This document shows, in pieces, positions 2,383-14,437 of a stretch of DNA of 31,274 nucleotides. Position 1 is the first letter of the stretch; each line of letters starts with the position of its first letter. This DNA comes from a virus. Made by a program: the position numbers and the translations under genes. The notes under the pieces were generated by a model, which saw nothing but the letters and a program-made list of their open reading frames with translations, had not been told where the DNA came from and searched no databases. Location: the IMG/VR virus record IMGVR_UViG_3300007735_000604, positions 1 through 31,274 of that record, one strand, 5' to 3'.

Positions 2383-2405
2383 TAAAAGGGCCCCGAAGGG
2401 CCCTT
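2383..2405 (-). terminator. Rho-independent terminator of leftmost early unit
   Basis: On the minus strand an 8-bp perfect stem (AAGGGCCC/GGGCCCTT) closes a TTCG tetraloop and runs straight into TTTTACTT. It begins at the stop codon of the gene ending at 2404. The GC-rich stem, UUCG loop and following U run are textbook intrinsic-terminator features. It insulates the early genes from terminase. Confidence 0.9.
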
Positions 2406-2619
2406 ATCCGAACATTTCCTTCATAAAATCCTCAACCGACCCGCCATAGGACGGCCTGAGCGCCCATCGTCCTGTCCTCTGCACGAAGACTTTACCCTCG
2501 CGATGGAGATCCCCTGCGCTCAGGTGGAGCACGCTCCACCGCTCGCCTTGGTCGTCTTCTTTAAGGATCCAGACACCGTCCGCATCCTCATCAATCCTGA
2601 CTGTGCGACCGATCCTCAT
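2404..2619 (-). CDS. Hypothetical protein, 71 aa
   Basis: No family recognised. The protein is small, charged and soluble-looking. It has a beta-rich N-terminal half (RIGRTVRIDEDADGVWIL) suggesting a small SH3- or ribbon-like fold, and a C-terminal acidic/amphipathic stretch. Its ATG overlaps the stop of the 94-aa gene upstream (ATGA), so it is translated by coupling from the leader-A unit. Its stop codon is part of the terminator hairpin, making it the last gene of that unit. Confidence 0.7.
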   Translation of the reverse strand: MRIGRTVRIDEDADGVWILKEDDQGERWSVLHLSAGDLHREGKVFVQRTGRWALRPSYGGSVEDFMKEMFG

Positions 2620-2900
2620 GCCGCCACCCGACCATGCTCATCATAATAAGCCTCGTAGGCTTCTCTGATATACTCGACGTAACGCTGTGCAGCATGCTCA
2701 GGGGTCTTGCCCCAGATCATGACACCGAAGACATCGAGCGGGTCTTCGAAGTTTTCTTCCTGCATGATGGCATAAGGCGCGTCGCGATCGCTACGAAAAC
2801 CGGGGTAGCAGATCTCGAACGTGATGGTGTCGCGATAGTCCGCGAGGGGGCCGTAGATCTTCTTGCCGACGAAGGGGTTTTTTACGGTGACGGTCTGCAT
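2616..2900 (-). CDS. Hypothetical protein, 94 aa, first gene of leader-A unit
   Basis: No family recognised. The sequence is acidic and rich in aromatic residues, with a C-terminal helix containing several tyrosines (AAQRYVEYIREAYEAYYDEH). It begins at ATG 2900, preceded at normal spacing by the TTGGAGATT Shine-Dalgarno block shared by all five leader modules. That fixes the start firmly. It overlaps the 71-aa gene by 4 nt. Confidence 0.8.
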   Translation of the reverse strand: MQTVTVKNPFVGKKIYGPLADYRDTITFEICYPGFRSDRDAPYAIMQEENFEDPLDVFGVMIWGKTPEHAAQRYVEYIREAYEAYYDEHGRVAA

Positions 2901-2992
2901 TTTAAAATCTCCAATTTAGAGGGCACCAACGCCCTGCCCGATCTTCATGCCATGATTCCAAAATCAGTACAAGCATAAAATTGCATTAACCA
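2901..2992 (-). promoter_or_regulatory. Leader module A (conserved box, hairpin, SD block)
   Basis: One of five related leaders. Read on the minus strand it has the box at 2968-2990 (TGCAATTTTATGCTTGTAC), a short inverted repeat TGATT-TTGG-AATCA, a hairpin GGGC-N6-GCCC at 2921-2934, then TCTAAATTGGAGATT and the ATG at 2900. TTGTAC looks like a -35 element. No convincing -10 follows at 17 nt, so the exact start of transcription is not established. Confidence 0.65.
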
Positions 2993-2997
2993 GAGGA

Positions 2998-3195
2998 TTA
3001 CTGAATAATTATTTCCTCCCCGCTTGGCGGTTGGCATACGCCTTGGGTGATAAGATTGTGCGCCATGCGGCCATAGGAGCCCTGCAAGCGCCATACGAGG
3101 CCAGTGTCGATCAGAGCCTGCCAAGCCTCAATGACGGTGTCGAAGTCCGCCTCTGCGTCGCCCTCAATGATTGTGATTGCGTCTAAGGTGTTCAT
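2998..3195 (-). CDS. DUF7417-like small phage protein, 65 aa (paralogue 1)
   Basis: The N-terminus MNTLDAITIIEGDAEAD and the pattern (W/Y)Q-LID-L-W-L-Y-A-LI-G-C match a small acidic protein family common in proteobacterial phages; I recall it as DUF7417 but have not confirmed this. Function is unknown. ATG 3195 is preferred over an alternative start 45 nt upstream because of an AAGGAG Shine-Dalgarno 8 nt before it and the family-typical N-terminus. It overlaps the preceding 116-aa gene by 4 nt (ATGA). The protein encoded at 3542-3730 is a diverged paralogue of it. Confidence 0.75.
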   Translation of the reverse strand: MNTLDAITIIEGDAEADFDTVIEAWQALIDTGLVWRLQGSYGRMAHNLITQGVCQPPSGEEIIIQ

Positions 3196-3542
3196 TGATT
3201 TGCTCCTTGTGAAAAGATTTCTGCATATTTTGGTGAGCACGAAAATATCTCGGCATACTCGGACGATCGAGCGTGGATCTGCCCTGCGGCTGATTTTACG
3301 CAGACCTCAAAAGCATGGGCGCGAGCCGCCGCCATGGTCGAAAAGATGCGTTTGCCATAAGAGCTCGCCTCATGGACAAACCATTTCGCGCCCTTGGCGG
3401 GATGCGTGATGACGGCGCAGAGGATAGGCTGACCGCCTTCGATGACGGGGTCGACATAGAGACCGATCTCGCGCCATCCGCCCTCGGCCTTGCGGGTGTC
3501 TTTGTATGTCACGAAGTGCGCTTTTGATACGAAGGTCTTCAT
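3192..3542 (-). CDS. Hypothetical protein, 116 aa, with C-terminal direct repeat
   Basis: No family recognised. The protein is soluble and basic, with a beta-rich N-terminal half. The C-terminus carries a tandem duplication: EYAEIFS at residues 95-101 and KYAEIFS at 105-111, encoded by recognisably similar DNA. It is flanked by the two DUF7417-like paralogues and overlaps each (TAATG upstream, ATGA downstream), so all three are one coupled unit starting at leader B. Confidence 0.72.
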   Translation of the reverse strand: MKTFVSKAHFVTYKDTRKAEGGWREIGLYVDPVIEGGQPILCAVITHPAKGAKWFVHEASSYGKRIFSTMAAARAHAFEVCVKSAAGQIHARSSEYAEIFSCSPKYAEIFSQGANQ

Positions 3543-3730
3543 TATGCGGCCTCCTTCATGCTGTGGCAGATACCGAAGTCGATCAGGTACTGAGCTTCTT
3601 GGGCGTAATAAGCGCCCAGATCCCAGATCAGGTCGAAGTCTATCAAGGTCTGATAGGCATTGGCTACGACGTAGAAATCCTCATCCTCGTCGGCATATTG
3701 TACGATATCAGTGGCTTCTTTGATGGTCAT
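3542..3730 (-). CDS. DUF7417-like small phage protein, 62 aa (paralogue 2)
   Basis: A small acidic protein with the same core pattern as the one at 2998-3195: a YQTLID block, IWDL, an AxxLIDFGIC block and an acidic N-terminal helix. It is more acidic and more diverged. It is the first gene after leader B and its ATG follows the shared TTGGAGATT block. Function unknown; the pair looks like an old gene duplication with a different gene kept between the copies. Confidence 0.75.
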   Translation of the reverse strand: MTIKEATDIVQYADEDEDFYVVANAYQTLIDFDLIWDLGAYYAQEAQYLIDFGICHSMKEAA

Positions 3731-3822
3731 TTCACAATCTCCAATCTAGTCGGGGCCGTCCCCGAACGAGAATCATAAAATCATAATTCCGTTCGGGGTG
3801 CAAGCAAAAAATTACATTAACC
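3731..3822 (-). promoter_or_regulatory. Leader module B
   Basis: On the minus strand: the box at 3797-3820 (TGTAATTTT then GCTTGCACC), TATGAT 12 nt after TTGCAC, a CGGGG-ACGG-CCCCG hairpin at 3751-3764, then CTAGATTGGAGATT and the ATG at 3730. It also has a 9-bp perfect inverted repeat, with arms 3760-3768 and 3790-3798 in plus-strand coordinates, which shares bases with both the box and the short hairpin. The two structures are therefore mutually exclusive in RNA. Confidence 0.7.
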
Positions 3823-3823
3823 C

Positions 3824-4678
3824 TCACCCCATAAATTCTGCGCGTGACGGGCGCGCGAGGATTGTCTGCTTAACGCCGTCGCGTGTGCCGTGTTCCTTTA
3901 CGGTGGCCGAGAAGCGGACAAGCTCGCCCTTCTGGACTTGCTGCGGGTAGCCGTCGATAACATCGACCAGAAGCTTGGCACCCTTGTGGATCAGCATGTT
4001 GCCAGCCGCGTCGCGCAAGCCGTGGACATGCGTCGTGCCGAAGACACCCTCATACGAAGTCACGAAGACGACTGTAGCATCGACCGTGATACGCTCGCCG
4101 ACAGTGCCGACCCAGCCAGAGGCGGCGTCCTGTGCCTTCTTGGCAAGCTCGCGCTCGATTGTCTTCTGGACGGCTGCAACCTGCGCGTCCGAGAGCGTGC
4201 CGTACTTGCGGCCCTTGGCGATCACGTCAGACACGAACGCAGGCACGTTGTCGAGCTTTGCGACAGCGAGGAGCAGGTCGGCGTAAAGCGCGTCGAAAGC
4301 GGTTTCGCGCGCATGCACTTCAGCGGCCTTTTTTGCGGCCTTCGCGTTTGTTTTGGCATTGAGCTTGGCGAGAGCATCAACTGTGTAAACGGGGACTTCG
4401 CGGGTACGGCCCTTGAAGCCGTGGCCGCCGCACTCGTAACAGGTGAGGCCTGTGTTCTTCCAAGCGAGAGAGCCGCCTGCGCCACCGCAACGACCGCAGG
4501 GATAACCATCGACGACAAAGTAGCCGCGGGGTGAAACATAAACGGGGCTCTGCGGCTCGCCGCCATGGCGGTATGAAAACGGATTAGCAGGGAGAGGGCC
4601 GCGTAAAAGTTGATGCTTTTGTTCGATCTTTTCGCACTCTGCGACCCAAGCTGTGAATTGAGGGGCTACTGTGTACAT
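3824..4678 (-). CDS. Zinc-ribbon protein with C-terminal OB-like domain, 284 aa
   Basis: Function not established. The N-terminal third contains two DnaJ-type zinc-knuckle pairs, CGRCGGAG near residues 61-68 and CYECGGHG near 80-87. A lysine/alanine-rich helical linker follows. The C-terminal 100 residues are beta-rich (ERITVDATVVFV, GAKLLVDV, GELVRFSATVKEHG) and read like an OB-type or SH3-like nucleic-acid-binding barrel. A nucleic-acid-binding role is inference from this architecture. The gene is alone in its unit: leader C precedes it, with the 4772-4807 terminator just upstream, and leader B follows. It is the longest gene of the accessory region. Confidence 0.75.
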   Translation of the reverse strand: MYTVAPQFTAWVAECEKIEQKHQLLRGPLPANPFSYRHGGEPQSPVYVSPRGYFVVDGYPCGRCGGAGGSLAWKNTGLTCYECGGHGFKGRTREVPVYTVDALAKLNAKTNAKAAKKAAEVHARETAFDALYADLLLAVAKLDNVPAFVSDVIAKGRKYGTLSDAQVAAVQKTIERELAKKAQDAASGWVGTVGERITVDATVVFVTSYEGVFGTTHVHGLRDAAGNMLIHKGAKLLVDVIDGYPQQVQKGELVRFSATVKEHGTRDGVKQTILARPSRAEFMG

Positions 4679-4769
4679 TTTGCAATCTCCAATCTAGGGG
4701 GCGACAACCGCCCGCACGAATCTTGTCGCATAAATTTAAAAACGGTACAAGTAAAAAATTACACGAACC
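4679..4769 (-). promoter_or_regulatory. Leader module C
   Basis: On the minus strand: the box at 4744-4767 (TGTAATTTT, then ACTTGTACC), TATG 12 nt after TTGTAC, a GGGCG-GTTGT-CGCCC hairpin at 4699-4713, then CTAGATTGGAGATT and the ATG at 4678. It lies immediately downstream of a strong intrinsic terminator, which is the best positional evidence that these modules contain promoters: the gene at 3824-4678 would otherwise not be transcribed. Confidence 0.72.
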
Positions 4770-4771
4770 TA

Positions 4772-4807
4772 TAAAAAAAAGAGGGGCCCGGGGAGATGTG
4801 GGCCCCT
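4772..4807 (-). terminator. Strong rho-independent terminator
   Basis: On the minus strand: AGGGGCCC, a 10-nt loop, GGGCCCCT, then C followed by eight T. The stem is perfect. It ends the two-gene unit at 4856-5333 and directly abuts leader C. Confidence 0.93.
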
Positions 4808-4816
4808 AAGTCGGGA

Positions 4817-4845
4817 GGACTACCCTACAATGGAAAGGGGAGTCC
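4817..4845 (-). other. Stem-loop preceding the terminator
   Basis: On the minus strand GGACTCCCC pairs with GGGTAGTCC (one mismatch) around an 11-nt loop. It sits between the stop codon of the gene ending at 4856 and the terminator hairpin. It may protect the mRNA 3' end or assist termination. Confidence 0.5.
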
Positions 4846-4855
4846 AAAACCCATA

Positions 4856-5125
4856 TCATATAATCAGCCCGCGGGCTACGGCATTGCCGAAAACGTGCAA
4901 AGCTTGAACGTTCAGGCGATTGCCGTTCTTGAGCCTGCCATTGAACAGGAAAGCAAACTGACGGCCGCGCTCATAGTGCCAGCGGTCGTTGCTGTTGTCG
5001 CTGTATAGATCAGGGTCGAGCGGGAGACCGCGGCCTGCTTGCTCATAACCAAAGCGGAAGGCCTTGGTGCGGAACACAGACCCGATTGTACGGGTCACGG
5101 TGTTGATCTGCTTGATCTCATGCAT
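4856..5125 (-). CDS. Hypothetical protein, 89 aa
   Basis: No family recognised. The protein is basic with aromatic and arginine clusters (FRFGYEQAGRG, WHYERGRQFAFLF); the YERGRQFAF block recurs in small hypothetical proteins of other phages, from memory. The start at 5125 lies inside the 3' end of the upstream gene (8-nt overlap); an alternative start 15 nt upstream would add MRSRP. It is last in its unit, followed by a stem-loop and a terminator. Confidence 0.68.
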   Translation of the reverse strand: MHEIKQINTVTRTIGSVFRTKAFRFGYEQAGRGLPLDPDLYSDNSNDRWHYERGRQFAFLFNGRLKNGNRLNVQALHVFGNAVARGLII

Positions 5126-5333
5126 TGGCCTGCTCCTCAATCTGGTTCAGGTACCACTCAACGTGCTCTTCGAAGGTCTTCTCGCCACCCTTCGCCATCT
5201 GGGCGATAAACACCTCGAGAGCGATCTCGTAATTACGAGAAGCGTATAATCCGTCAGGACGGAAACCCTGACGGACAGCATCAGCGGCGTAGGCTTTACG
5301 AAGACGGTCTGCTGCTTCAAAAACATTCTGCAT
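5118..5333 (-). CDS. Hypothetical protein, 71 aa, first gene of leader-D unit
   Basis: No family recognised. It is predicted mostly helical and soluble, with a C-terminal acidic amphipathic helix (EEHVEWYLNQIEEQA). The ATG at 5333 follows the shared leader Shine-Dalgarno block, which fixes the start. It overlaps the next gene by 8 nt. Confidence 0.75.
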   Translation of the reverse strand: MQNVFEAADRLRKAYAADAVRQGFRPDGLYASRNYEIALEVFIAQMAKGGEKTFEEHVEWYLNQIEEQANA

Positions 5334-5422
5334 TTCACAATCTCCAATCTAGGCGGCCCCTTGGCCGACGCACAATCCATACACCGTCTCCTCATACGGT
5401 GCAAGCAGAAAATTACACGATC
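5334..5422 (-). promoter_or_regulatory. Leader module D
   Basis: On the minus strand: the box at 5398-5420 (TGTAATTTT then GCTTGCACC), an inverted repeat CACCGT-N8-ACGGTG, TATGGA exactly 17 nt after TTGCAC, a CGGCC-AAGG-GGCCG hairpin at 5354-5367, then CTAGATTGGAGATT and the ATG at 5333. Of the five copies this fits a sigma70-type spacing best. The box overlaps the stop codon of the gene ending at 5413. Confidence 0.72.
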
Positions 5423-5808
5423 CCCCTTCGCATGATTTTATCCCTTTCCTTCTTTGGCAAAGCTTGGATCCTGTTCCACTCTGCCGCGGCGAAATCATAC
5501 CGCTTCTGCTCTTCCTCAACGTCATTGTAGATCTTCATAAAGGCCTCGTCTTCGTCTTTGTACTTACGAAGCCACAGACGCGCCTTGTCGAGCCATCGTG
5601 CATAGACATACCATTCGCCGCGCGCGAAATCGGACCCCGGGTGCTGTCTGGCTAATCCATTATGGATCATGTCTTCGACAAGCTGTCTAAAGGAAGCTGC
5701 GCGCCAAGATTCTTTATGCAGCCGCGCCTCAAGATCATCGATCTGCTCACGCAAGCTAACGATCTTACGCAACAGATCGTTTTCATGTTTCAGTTGATCT
5801 TCGTTCAT
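5413..5808 (-). CDS. Coiled-coil hypothetical protein, 131 aa
   Basis: The N-terminal 40 residues form a clear heptad-like coiled coil (LKHENDLLRKIVSLREQIDD). A tryptophan/tyrosine-rich middle and a second charged helix follow, and the C-terminus is basic. No catalytic motif is visible. Its ATG overlaps the stop of the Tat-signal gene upstream (ATGA). It is the last gene of the long leader-E unit, and its stop lies inside the leader-D box. Function unknown. Confidence 0.72.
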   Translation of the reverse strand: MNEDQLKHENDLLRKIVSLREQIDDLEARLHKESWRAASFRQLVEDMIHNGLARQHPGSDFARGEWYVYARWLDKARLWLRKYKDEDEAFMKIYNDVEEEQKRYDFAAAEWNRIQALPKKERDKIMRRGIV

Positions 5809-6522: not shown

Positions 6523-6680
6523 CACTCTTCATCCTTCATCATGTATTCTTCCAAGAAAATTAAGCAATCAGCTAAACTTCCAGCAAATAAAATTGCAGTT
6601 TTGTAATCATAAACATTGTGTTGCTTCACAATGTATCCACCGAGTTCAAGTTTGACCAACATTGCTGCTTTCTTCCACAT
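6522..6680 (-). CDS. Small hypothetical protein, 52 aa
   Basis: Found by translating the minus strand between two coupled genes. The frame is open from ATG 6680 to the TGA that overlaps the next gene's start. It has a GGAG Shine-Dalgarno 8 nt upstream and its start overlaps the upstream stop (TGATG). The protein begins MWKKAAMLVKLELGGY, has an amphipathic helical middle (ILFAGSLADCLIFLEEYM) and an acidic end. Its coding comes from exact fit into the chain of overlapping genes; function unknown. Confidence 0.72.
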   Translation of the reverse strand: MWKKAAMLVKLELGGYIVKQHNVYDYKTAILFAGSLADCLIFLEEYMMKDEE

Positions 6681-8190: not shown

Positions 8191-8495
8191 TATTCGGCCT
8201 CCTTCTTCTTGGCGACGACTTTGACGACAGGAAACGATTCGCCGTCCTTCTTGCATGCCGAGAACAGCTTAAACTGCGCTTCGGTGATACCGTAGTCCTT
8301 GAGCAGCTTGTCGAAGTCCATCGACGAACGCTGCGAGAGTGTAACCGTAACGTCTTCTTCGGTGCCTTCGTGGCGACCGAGATCCCATTCCTTGACGAAC
8401 GTATCGCGCGCGGCTTCGTATGCTTCCTTGGCCGCGTCAGCAGCGTTCTTGAGAGCGATGAGGGTGTCTGGGTGAGTGCGGTTTGCGATGGTCAT
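8190..8495 (-). CDS. Hypothetical protein, 101 aa, first gene of leader-E unit
   Basis: An alanine-rich N-terminal helix (ALKNAADAAKEAYEAARDTF), a short beta segment (VTVTLSQRSS), then DFDKLLKDYGITEAQFKLF and a lysine-rich tail. No family recognised with confidence; it looks like a small helical nucleic-acid- or protein-binding factor. It is the first of about twelve coupled genes, and its ATG follows the leader-E GGAGATT block. Confidence 0.73.
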   Translation of the reverse strand: MTIANRTHPDTLIALKNAADAAKEAYEAARDTFVKEWDLGRHEGTEEDVTVTLSQRSSMDFDKLLKDYGITEAQFKLFSACKKDGESFPVVKVVAKKKEAE

Positions 8496-8590
8496 CTCAA
8501 AATCTCCTATCTAAAATCTAGCGGCTCGCTGCCGACGCCCCCTTCTCCCATATCCCGAAGATCGGTGCAAGCATTTTTTTGTACATTCTC
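8496..8590 (-). promoter_or_regulatory. Leader module E
   Basis: On the minus strand: the box at 8563-8587 (ATGTAC, an A/T tract, then GCTTGCACC), CCGA-TCT-TCGG, TATGG 12 nt after TTGCAC, a CGGC-AGCGA-GCCG hairpin at 8522-8534, CTAGATT, and TAGGAGATT before the ATG at 8495. The most diverged copy, with an extra short insertion before the Shine-Dalgarno. Confidence 0.66.
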
Positions 8591-14146: not shown

Positions 14147-14239
14147 TGGCACTCTCCTCTTGCTACTACGGGGTTGACAATAAGACCGCCACCGTGGGAA
14201 TGTCAAGCGCAGTTTAAACATATGAAAGCGGAATTGATT
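14147..14239. promoter_or_regulatory. Divergent control region with inverted TTGACA elements
   Basis: The region between the leftward ATPase gene and the rightward XRE gene holds TTGACA on the plus strand at 14174 and again on the minus strand at 14206, facing inward 33 nt apart (an inverted repeat TTGACAxT). The minus-strand copy is followed after 17 nt by TTATTG, a weak -10. The plus-strand copy has no good -10. Two overlapping promoters or an operator half-site pair for the XRE protein are the likely readings. Confidence 0.55.
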
Positions 14240-14437
14240 ATGGAGAAACCCCACCAGATAATGACATTGGAGGAGGTCCGCCACGCTTTGCGGGACCGCA
14301 GGCTTATTGTCGTGGCGCATGAAACAAATCTGTCCTACCCGACCATCAAGGCGATCCTCGATGGCAGGCAAAACCCGAAATACGAAACTGTGAAGCTTCT
14401 GTCTGATTATCTGCTCGGCATTAAATCAGACCAATGA
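14240..14437 (+). CDS. XRE/Cro-like transcription regulator, 65 aa
   Basis: A small helix-turn-helix protein: the block LRDRRLIVVAHETNLSYPTIKAILDGRQNPKY with following helix TVKLLSDYLLG has the five-helix layout of Cro/CI-type regulators. The recognition helix is around SYPTIKAIL. Without a long C-terminal dimerisation domain it is more Cro-like than CI-like. ATG 14240 (GCGGAA upstream) is preferred; ATG 14222 or 14261 are alternatives. Divergent from the recombination operon, it probably regulates the 14147-14239 region and the primase gene behind it. Confidence 0.82.
   Translation: MEKPHQIMTLEEVRHALRDRRLIVVAHETNLSYPTIKAILDGRQNPKYETVKLLSDYLLGIKSDQ

Follow-up and report, generated by a model that had tools for sequence, protein, structure and literature searches.

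A predicted zinc-knuckle/OB-fold gene of a tailed phage and the repeated, hairpin-bearing leader that precedes it

Introduction

The 5′-terminal stem-loops of the ompA type are said to have been described as mRNA stabilisers by Emory, Bouvet and Belasco in 1992. Such a stabiliser (PMC7509114) is the closest mechanism to the arrangement reported here: in both, a stem-loop at the 5′ end, in our case the predicted one, is followed by the Shine–Dalgarno sequence, whereas the stem-loop of our phage is repeated at several genes of one genome. In view of the subtilis mRNA treated in the same source (PMC7509114), the analogy has to be drawn with caution, because the hairpins found here end 7–14 nt before the ribosome-binding site.

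SAS/ESAS elements offer a second comparison. According to PMC3203893 and PMC12699233, SAS is a short conserved repeat at the ribosome-binding site of some non-structural genes, about half of the copies having an inverted repeat just upstream; the core is the 13-bp GGGATAGGAGCCC, the ESAS arms are 17 bp long and conform to a consensus, and hairpins in the mRNA received little support from the data of those authors (PMC3203893). The plan of our leader is similar, a repeated element lying at the ribosome-binding site of a subset of genes, whereas its arms are 4–6 bp long and vary in sequence while pairing is kept, and a −35/−10 pair stands at fixed spacing. The GGGATAGGAGCCC core has a single match in the sequence analysed, with two mismatches, away from the leaders and inside a gene on the opposite strand, and 27 of 100 shuffles contain at least one. 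An assignment of the leader to SAS/ESAS was rejected: the core test failed, the 17-bp consensus arms are absent and the behaviour of the arms is the reverse of that in ESAS.

A moron has its own terminator after the gene. Morons are described in the glossary of PMC7380047 as phage accessory genes that are regulated independently. Measured against that account, the gene studied here resembles a moron in being optional, in following a promoter-like site and in occupying a variable slot (empty in one relative, filled by a methyltransferase gene in another), and differs in that no terminator was found after it (between 4781 and 2405), its leader is shared with neighbouring genes and it brings no known benefit to the host. 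As to its product, the likeness to RPA/SSB-type proteins lies in a predicted OB fold at residues 187–284, and the difference in N-terminal knuckles, a helical linker and the presence of another SSB in the same phage. A literature search (titles and abstracts, with subscription journals mostly outside it) returned no description of such a leader or of a zinc-plus-OB phage family; a paper on CoCoNuT systems (PMC11090510) shares its terms.

Results

The gene and its surroundings

The window, i.e. the whole stretch of DNA analysed, is a virus record of 31,274 bases; with its first 12 kb as query, megablast retrieved nothing from 50,697 phage records. Phages of alphaproteobacteria are among the relatives. 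The open reading frame for a 284-residue protein that a preliminary description had placed in it is present on the minus strand (Table 1) and is followed directly by a second leader; an identical gene occurs in contig L025. Since the phage already encodes its own SSB (phrog_9002, 1e-52), together with Sak4 and a RecE-like exonuclease, at 12.1–14.1 kb, the 284-residue protein would be a second OB protein. Its gene reads best as accessory cargo of a tailed phage. Two neighbouring small genes (2998–3198 and 3542–3730) belong to the DUF7417/phrog_3908 family, the second below the Pfam cut-off; the same pair stands side by side in the related contig L147.

Table 1. Positions of the features discussed in the text, numbered along the window
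Feature	Position	Strand	Basis or remark
284-aa gene: N-terminal four-Cys knuckle pair, long helical linker, C-terminal OB fold	3824–4678	−	open reading frame, sequence, predicted model
Zinc knuckle pair CGRCGGAG...CYECGGHG, residues 61–87	4418–4498	−	sequence; four Cys also in 15 relatives picked for having them
OB-fold domain, residues 187–284	3827–4120	−	AlphaFold2 model; VIA-align Z 8.8 to RPA-like domain
Leader of the 284-aa gene	4676–4769	−	AT-rich element first, ATG last; repeats and pattern scan, inner coordinates worked out from these
Promoter-like sites of this leader: −35 TTGTAC, 17 nt, −10 GACAAG	4750–4745 (−35); 4727–4722 (−10)	−	
Hairpin of this leader, GGGCG[GTTGT]CGCCC	4713–4699	−	
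Ribosome-binding site of this leader, CTAGATTGGAGATTG	4697–4683	−	then ATG
Downstream leader, before the 62-aa DUF7417-like gene; hairpin TCGGGG[ACGG]CCCCGA	3728–3822	−	
Leader before the 94-aa gene; hairpin AGGGC[GTTGGT]GCCCT	2898–2991	−	compensatory change in L147/L149
Leader before the 71-aa gene; hairpin CGGCC[AAGG]GGCCG	5331–5423	−	
Leader before the 101-aa gene; hairpin CGGC[AGCGA]GCCG	8493–8586	−	compensatory change in relatives
Intrinsic terminator, with a GC stem and a T-run reaching about 4774; ends the preceding 71/89-aa unit	4782–4807	−	terminator scan, folding
Extra stem-loop GGACT.CCCC/GGGT.AGTCC, directly before the terminator	4817–4845	−	
Next minus-strand terminator downstream, after the 71-aa gene 2404–2619	2387–2404	−	

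The product is predicted to join a knuckle pair to an OB fold

The preliminary description had read the product as a nucleic-acid-binding zinc-ribbon/OB protein on the strength of two CxxCxGxG knuckles and a beta-barrel-like C-terminus. Both knuckles are found, at residues 61–68 and 80–87, and the barrel is predicted with high confidence, the AlphaFold2 and Foldseek check having returned an OB barrel. The AlphaFold2 model, built with 43 family members in the alignment, has a pLDDT of 92.9 and a pTM of 0.70, and its matches in the PDB by Foldseek are mostly OB folds (E 0.003–0.06 among the best 50 matches listed). In VIA-align, residues 187–284 superpose on the RPA-like domain 3dm3 with a Z of 8.8 (2.5 Å over 82 residues), tied with the anticodon-binding domain of AspRS (8.8) and followed by PriB (8.7), RPA70 (8.5) and superantigens (8.4). 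As a prediction, with OB Z-scores of up to 8.8, the earlier reading thus holds, and the protein is probably a zinc-knuckle and OB protein that binds nucleic acid.

The two parts of the protein differ in how widely they occur. Residues C61, C64, C80 and C83 are kept in 16 of 16 alignment rows, which were chosen for the motif (the model itself contains no metal), and 16 of the 43 family members in the alignment have the knuckle pair; the OB part is thus common to the family and the zinc part optional. The protein matches six PHROG families, none of them with a function. Four PHROG families of unknown function (30451, 27218, 2319 and 3628) are matched by every one of the 43 aligned members, of which just those 16 have the N-terminal knuckle pair. 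By tblastn, 132 of 50,697 phage records match at E up to 0.01, over mostly the last 100–130 residues among the matches listed, and six plasmid records also match. A search by sequence against solved proteins gave nothing significant (best E 0.24). The N-terminal part modelled alone reaches a pLDDT of 87.2 in AlphaFold2 and has no match in the PDB better than E 0.24. A DnaJ zinc domain, which consists of four CxxCxGxG repeats, was ruled out: two repeats only are present, and the Pfam score for PF00684 is 15.5 bits against a cut-off of 32.7, this sub-threshold half-domain being all that Pfam returned for the protein. Comparison with the 252-residue homologue of a second related contig, L004, indicates that the N-terminus of these proteins is a mosaic: 25–30 of 30 residues agree in each of the blocks spanning 91–270 and 13 of 14 beyond, compared with 18 of 30 at 61–90 and 10 of 30 at 31–60, and among the first 30 residues 29 lack a counterpart altogether. 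In another family member (L119, 2905–3783), the stretch from the knuckles to the OB fold looks unlike the usual helical linker.

The tie between the RPA-like domain and AspRS, the superantigens at 8.4 and the fact that VIA-align itself notes a best Z of 7–8 as common mean that the fold does not fix the ligand. We regard it as somewhat unlikely that the protein binds another protein or a structured RNA instead of ssDNA, for instance to inhibit a defence system or some factor of the host. That alternative draws on the AspRS tie, on the SSB that the phage already encodes and on the variable, accessory nature of the gene; it is countered by annotations, since among 46 viral matches in BFVD at E 0.001 or better two, from Arthrobacter phage Sonali (E 1.7e-12) and Brevibacterium phage Cantare (7.7e-6), are named ssDNA-binding protein and the BcepSauron homologue carries the name replication factor, and by an exonuclease X-like C-terminal domain in 2 of the 43 family members. 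An extra OB protein that binds ssDNA (or RNA), beside the SSB of the phage, would fit these observations. The OB family is widespread, and PHROGs assigns it no function.

A leader repeated before five genes

Leaders had been noted upstream and downstream of the gene, and both are present. The upstream one had been taken for the gene's own, whereas the same leader also precedes the 101-, 71-, 62- and 94-residue genes. A repeat search retrieved two families of four copies each, always together, before the 94-, 62-, 284- and 71-residue genes; the fifth leader, before the 101-residue gene, was added by reading and a pattern scan. All follow one plan: (i) a −35 element TTG(C/T)AC, (ii) 17 nt and a −10 element, (iii) a hairpin 7–9 nt further on, (iv) a ribosome-binding site and (v) the ATG. 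With up to three mismatches, the leader core CTAGATTGGAGATTG has six matches in the window (two of them overlapping) against 0.69 expected, a number reached in 0 of 100 shuffles. The −35 element has five matches against 0.66 expected (0 of 100 shuffles reach five), of which four are leaders and the fifth (7848) is not, the leader of the 101-residue gene being missed. No regulatory RNA family was detected in the window by Rfam at gathering score.

The stretches scanned in three relatives, L004 (part of a 57-kb contig), L147 and L149, contain four leaders each, one of which, in L004, precedes just a 17-residue frame. Over the four phages, the hairpin starts 7–9 nt past the −10 hexamer, itself placed by the fixed 17-nt spacer from the −35 element, in 15 of 17 leaders, which display ten distinct hairpins, one of them with a G–U pair; it is absent from the leaders of the 71-residue genes of L147 and L149. 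The Shine–Dalgarno sequence follows the hairpin after 7, 8 or 14 nt, and its distance to the ATG is 7–9 nt in all 17 leaders, the scan pattern having already demanded 3–10 nt. With a transcription start about 7 nt after the −10 element, as is general, the mRNA would begin at the hairpin.

The hairpin separates leaders from chance matches. Among 18 stretches of viral contigs with the −35 element plus core, 5 show the leader (L007, L008, L025, L147 and L149) and 13 do not, and none of these 13 has a hairpin of at least 4 bp at 7–9 nt (one has a hairpin at 2 nt). On leader-bearing contigs, 8 of 9 matches to −35 plus core have the hairpin, and the ninth has it at 9 nt if one G–U pair is accepted. 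One of the stretches without the leader, L144, shows a short hairpin, differently spaced, together with a frame of two codons. The 15-mer core alone, contained in 23 stretches of viral contigs, was rejected as a diagnostic of the leader.

The five stems of the window are all different and all paired, with arms of 4–6 bp, and one compensatory change of a pair was found in each of two leaders. In the leader of the 94-residue gene, the stem AGGGC/GCCCT becomes AGGCC/GGCCT in L147 and L149; the window-type stem recurs in L004, before the 17-residue frame, with a different loop base, so that the variable positions of this 23-nt segment are the paired swap and one loop base. In the leader of the 101-residue gene, CGGC/GCCG becomes CGCC/GGCG in L147, in L149 and before a 98-residue frame of L004. 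Sliding the pairing by 1–3 columns abolishes the covariation in both leaders; the shuffle control of this test discriminates poorly, since with three distinct rows each the result is equalled by 154 and 175 of 500 shuffles. Each of the four hairpins of the window with stems of 5 bp or more is matched by 2–3% of mononucleotide shuffles of its own leader, and the minimum free energy of single leaders is ordinary (z −1.1 to +0.2 for four leaders against shuffles). Because single leaders fold no better than shuffles, the case for the hairpin rests on position and pairing. A sequence-specific operator for a protein is disfavoured, as loops and arms differ among copies.

These data also bear on the proposal that the leader is merely a favourable promoter and ribosome-binding site spread by duplication, the hairpin having no function. 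The leaders of one phage are indeed similar in sequence, isolated leaders fold like shuffles and 2 of the 17 are devoid of the hairpin; against this, the stems vary among copies yet pair at a constant position, paired changes occur in two leaders, and the hairpin is missing from chance matches to −35 plus core. We hold a functionless hairpin to be unlikely and favour a hairpin whose pairing would be kept while its sequence is free.

Promoter-like sites upstream of family members

A promoter-like site upstream of the gene is not peculiar to this phage. Using 31 representatives (54 family genes clustered at 65% identity), we scored the 150 nt upstream of each gene and of the other open reading frames of its locus against the sigma-70 consensus of E. 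coli, with a crude gene caller. Family genes score higher than their locus neighbours (mean difference 1.32), and are top or tied for top in 16 of 31 loci, 10 of them strictly top, against 3.1 expected; permutation within loci equalled this in 0 of 4,000 trials. The difference holds against open reading frames of at least 120 residues (31 loci) and at least 180 residues (22 loci), and after clustering at 40% (14, 14 and 10 loci; p = 0.00025, 0.005 and 0.0025). In the window's own locus (L033), the gene scores 7.5 against the E. coli consensus and is not top. Among codirectional homologues, 16 of 23 have an upstream gap of at least 60 nt, compared with 76 of 186 among other genes (p = 0.03), an effect that is modest after dereplication. 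The promoter-like site thus seems to be a feature of the OB family, and its occurrence in distant phages suggests that the OB protein may be needed early or in quantity. Part of the preliminary idea is therefore supported.

Boundaries of the unit and variation of the slot

A strong terminator and an extra stem-loop were reported upstream of the gene, and both are there (Table 1). The terminator region (4766–4812) folds at −17 kcal/mol, and stem-loop and terminator together at −33.3 kcal/mol (z −2.8; z −4.4 for the matching stretch of L004). Terminator counterparts with a changed loop or stem occur in L004, L147 and L149, where terminator and stem-loop likewise follow the 71/74-residue gene, and the core of the extra stem-loop is present in three contigs. 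The tandem stem-loops can be aligned across the four phages; their stems are in part different, with both sides changed in 2 of 16 predicted pairs and some pairs broken in L149. Because L147 and L149 keep these structures with no gene of the 284-residue type there, we assign them to the 3′ end of the preceding unit. Downstream, neither of two scans found a minus-strand terminator between 4781 and 2405: from 8.6 to 2.3 kb, the stricter one placed minus-strand terminators only at 4807–4782 and 2404–2387, and the looser one added weak candidates at 6634–6613 and 5229–5216.

What lies between this terminator and the next leader varies. In L004, a leader and the 252-residue homologue are followed after 13 nt by a DUF7417-like gene that has no leader of its own; in L149, the slot is occupied by a C-5 cytosine methyltransferase gene (PF00145, 6e-41; 2386–3882, minus strand), between the terminator and the next leader; in L147, it is empty, the 71-residue gene and tandem stem-loops being followed by a leader and the DUF7417-like gene. 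As the slot differs among the window, L004, L147 and L149, the 284-residue gene is optional at that place; L147 and L149 are contigs of 8–12 kb, and a gene of this type could lie elsewhere in these phages. Genes also seem, on comparison of gene orders, to move between leader units. An 89-residue gene lies in the 71-residue unit of the window (4856–5125), its apparent homologues, recognised by eye, lie in the DUF7417 unit of L147 (941–1201) and L149 (1875–2210), and the part of L004 inspected showed no counterpart. The leader of the 71/74-residue gene is preceded by a GC-rich stretch of low-complexity appearance in L004 (about 3960–4480), L147 (about 2050–2640) and L149 (from about 4270), at the place of which the window has an open reading frame of 131 residues; no tandem arrays were found upstream of the 74-residue gene of L004 or the 71-residue gene of L147.

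The gene had been called an insulated single-gene unit with separately controlled expression. The leader and the upstream terminator bear out part of this description, whereas the 3′ end is unclosed, the leader is shared and the terminator is the end of the previous unit. The five leaders have in common the −35 element, the 17-nt spacing, the position of the hairpin and the ribosome-binding site, and no terminator was found after the gene; the sharing suggests a common regulon of the five leader-bearing genes, not separate control. An insulated unit with a timing distinct from that of its neighbours is therefore very unlikely: the strong upstream terminator, a promoter-like leader on either side and the promoter-like sites that family members often follow speak for it, and the service of the same leader to four other genes, the two scans without a closing terminator and the direct adjoining of the next gene to the L004 homologue speak against it.

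Discussion

Our main reading, to which we give a probability of about 0.6, is that the 284-residue gene is accessory nucleic-acid-binding cargo, expressed from one of five hairpin-capped leaders of the sigma-70 type within a shared regulon. Its product would be a two-part nucleic-acid binder, in which a helical linker joins a knuckle pair of four cysteines, which may bind zinc, to an OB fold of the RPA/SSB kind. The gene would be transcribed from a sigma-70-type promoter of its own, one of five near-identical leaders serving a leftward set of small genes, possibly early in infection. The predicted transcript would start at, or within about 3 nt of, a hairpin of 4–6 bp, with the Shine–Dalgarno sequence 7–14 nt further on, and the hairpin would most likely act as a 5′ cap that protects the mRNA and leaves the ribosome-binding site free. 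The upstream terminator and stem-loop would end the previous unit and mark a slot for differing cargo. If so, one phage reuses at several genes a 5′ protector of mRNA that is structural and not sequence-based. In our judgement, the elements of the preliminary description are real and had been tied to one gene; together, they form a repeated expression module and a cargo slot.

A wider proposal, possible at rather less than even odds, is that terminator, promoter, 5′ hairpin and ribosome-binding site make up an exchangeable docking slot, in which cargo genes would be inserted precisely into the interval that separates the terminator from the following leader; the hairpin would act as a sequence-independent 5′ cap making the mRNA of any cargo stable and translatable.

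As to regulators, the frame at 14219–14437 (plus strand), between the divergent recombination and primase genes, has a weak helix-turn-helix match (PF01381, E 0.007, below the cut-off), and its product is a candidate early regulator.
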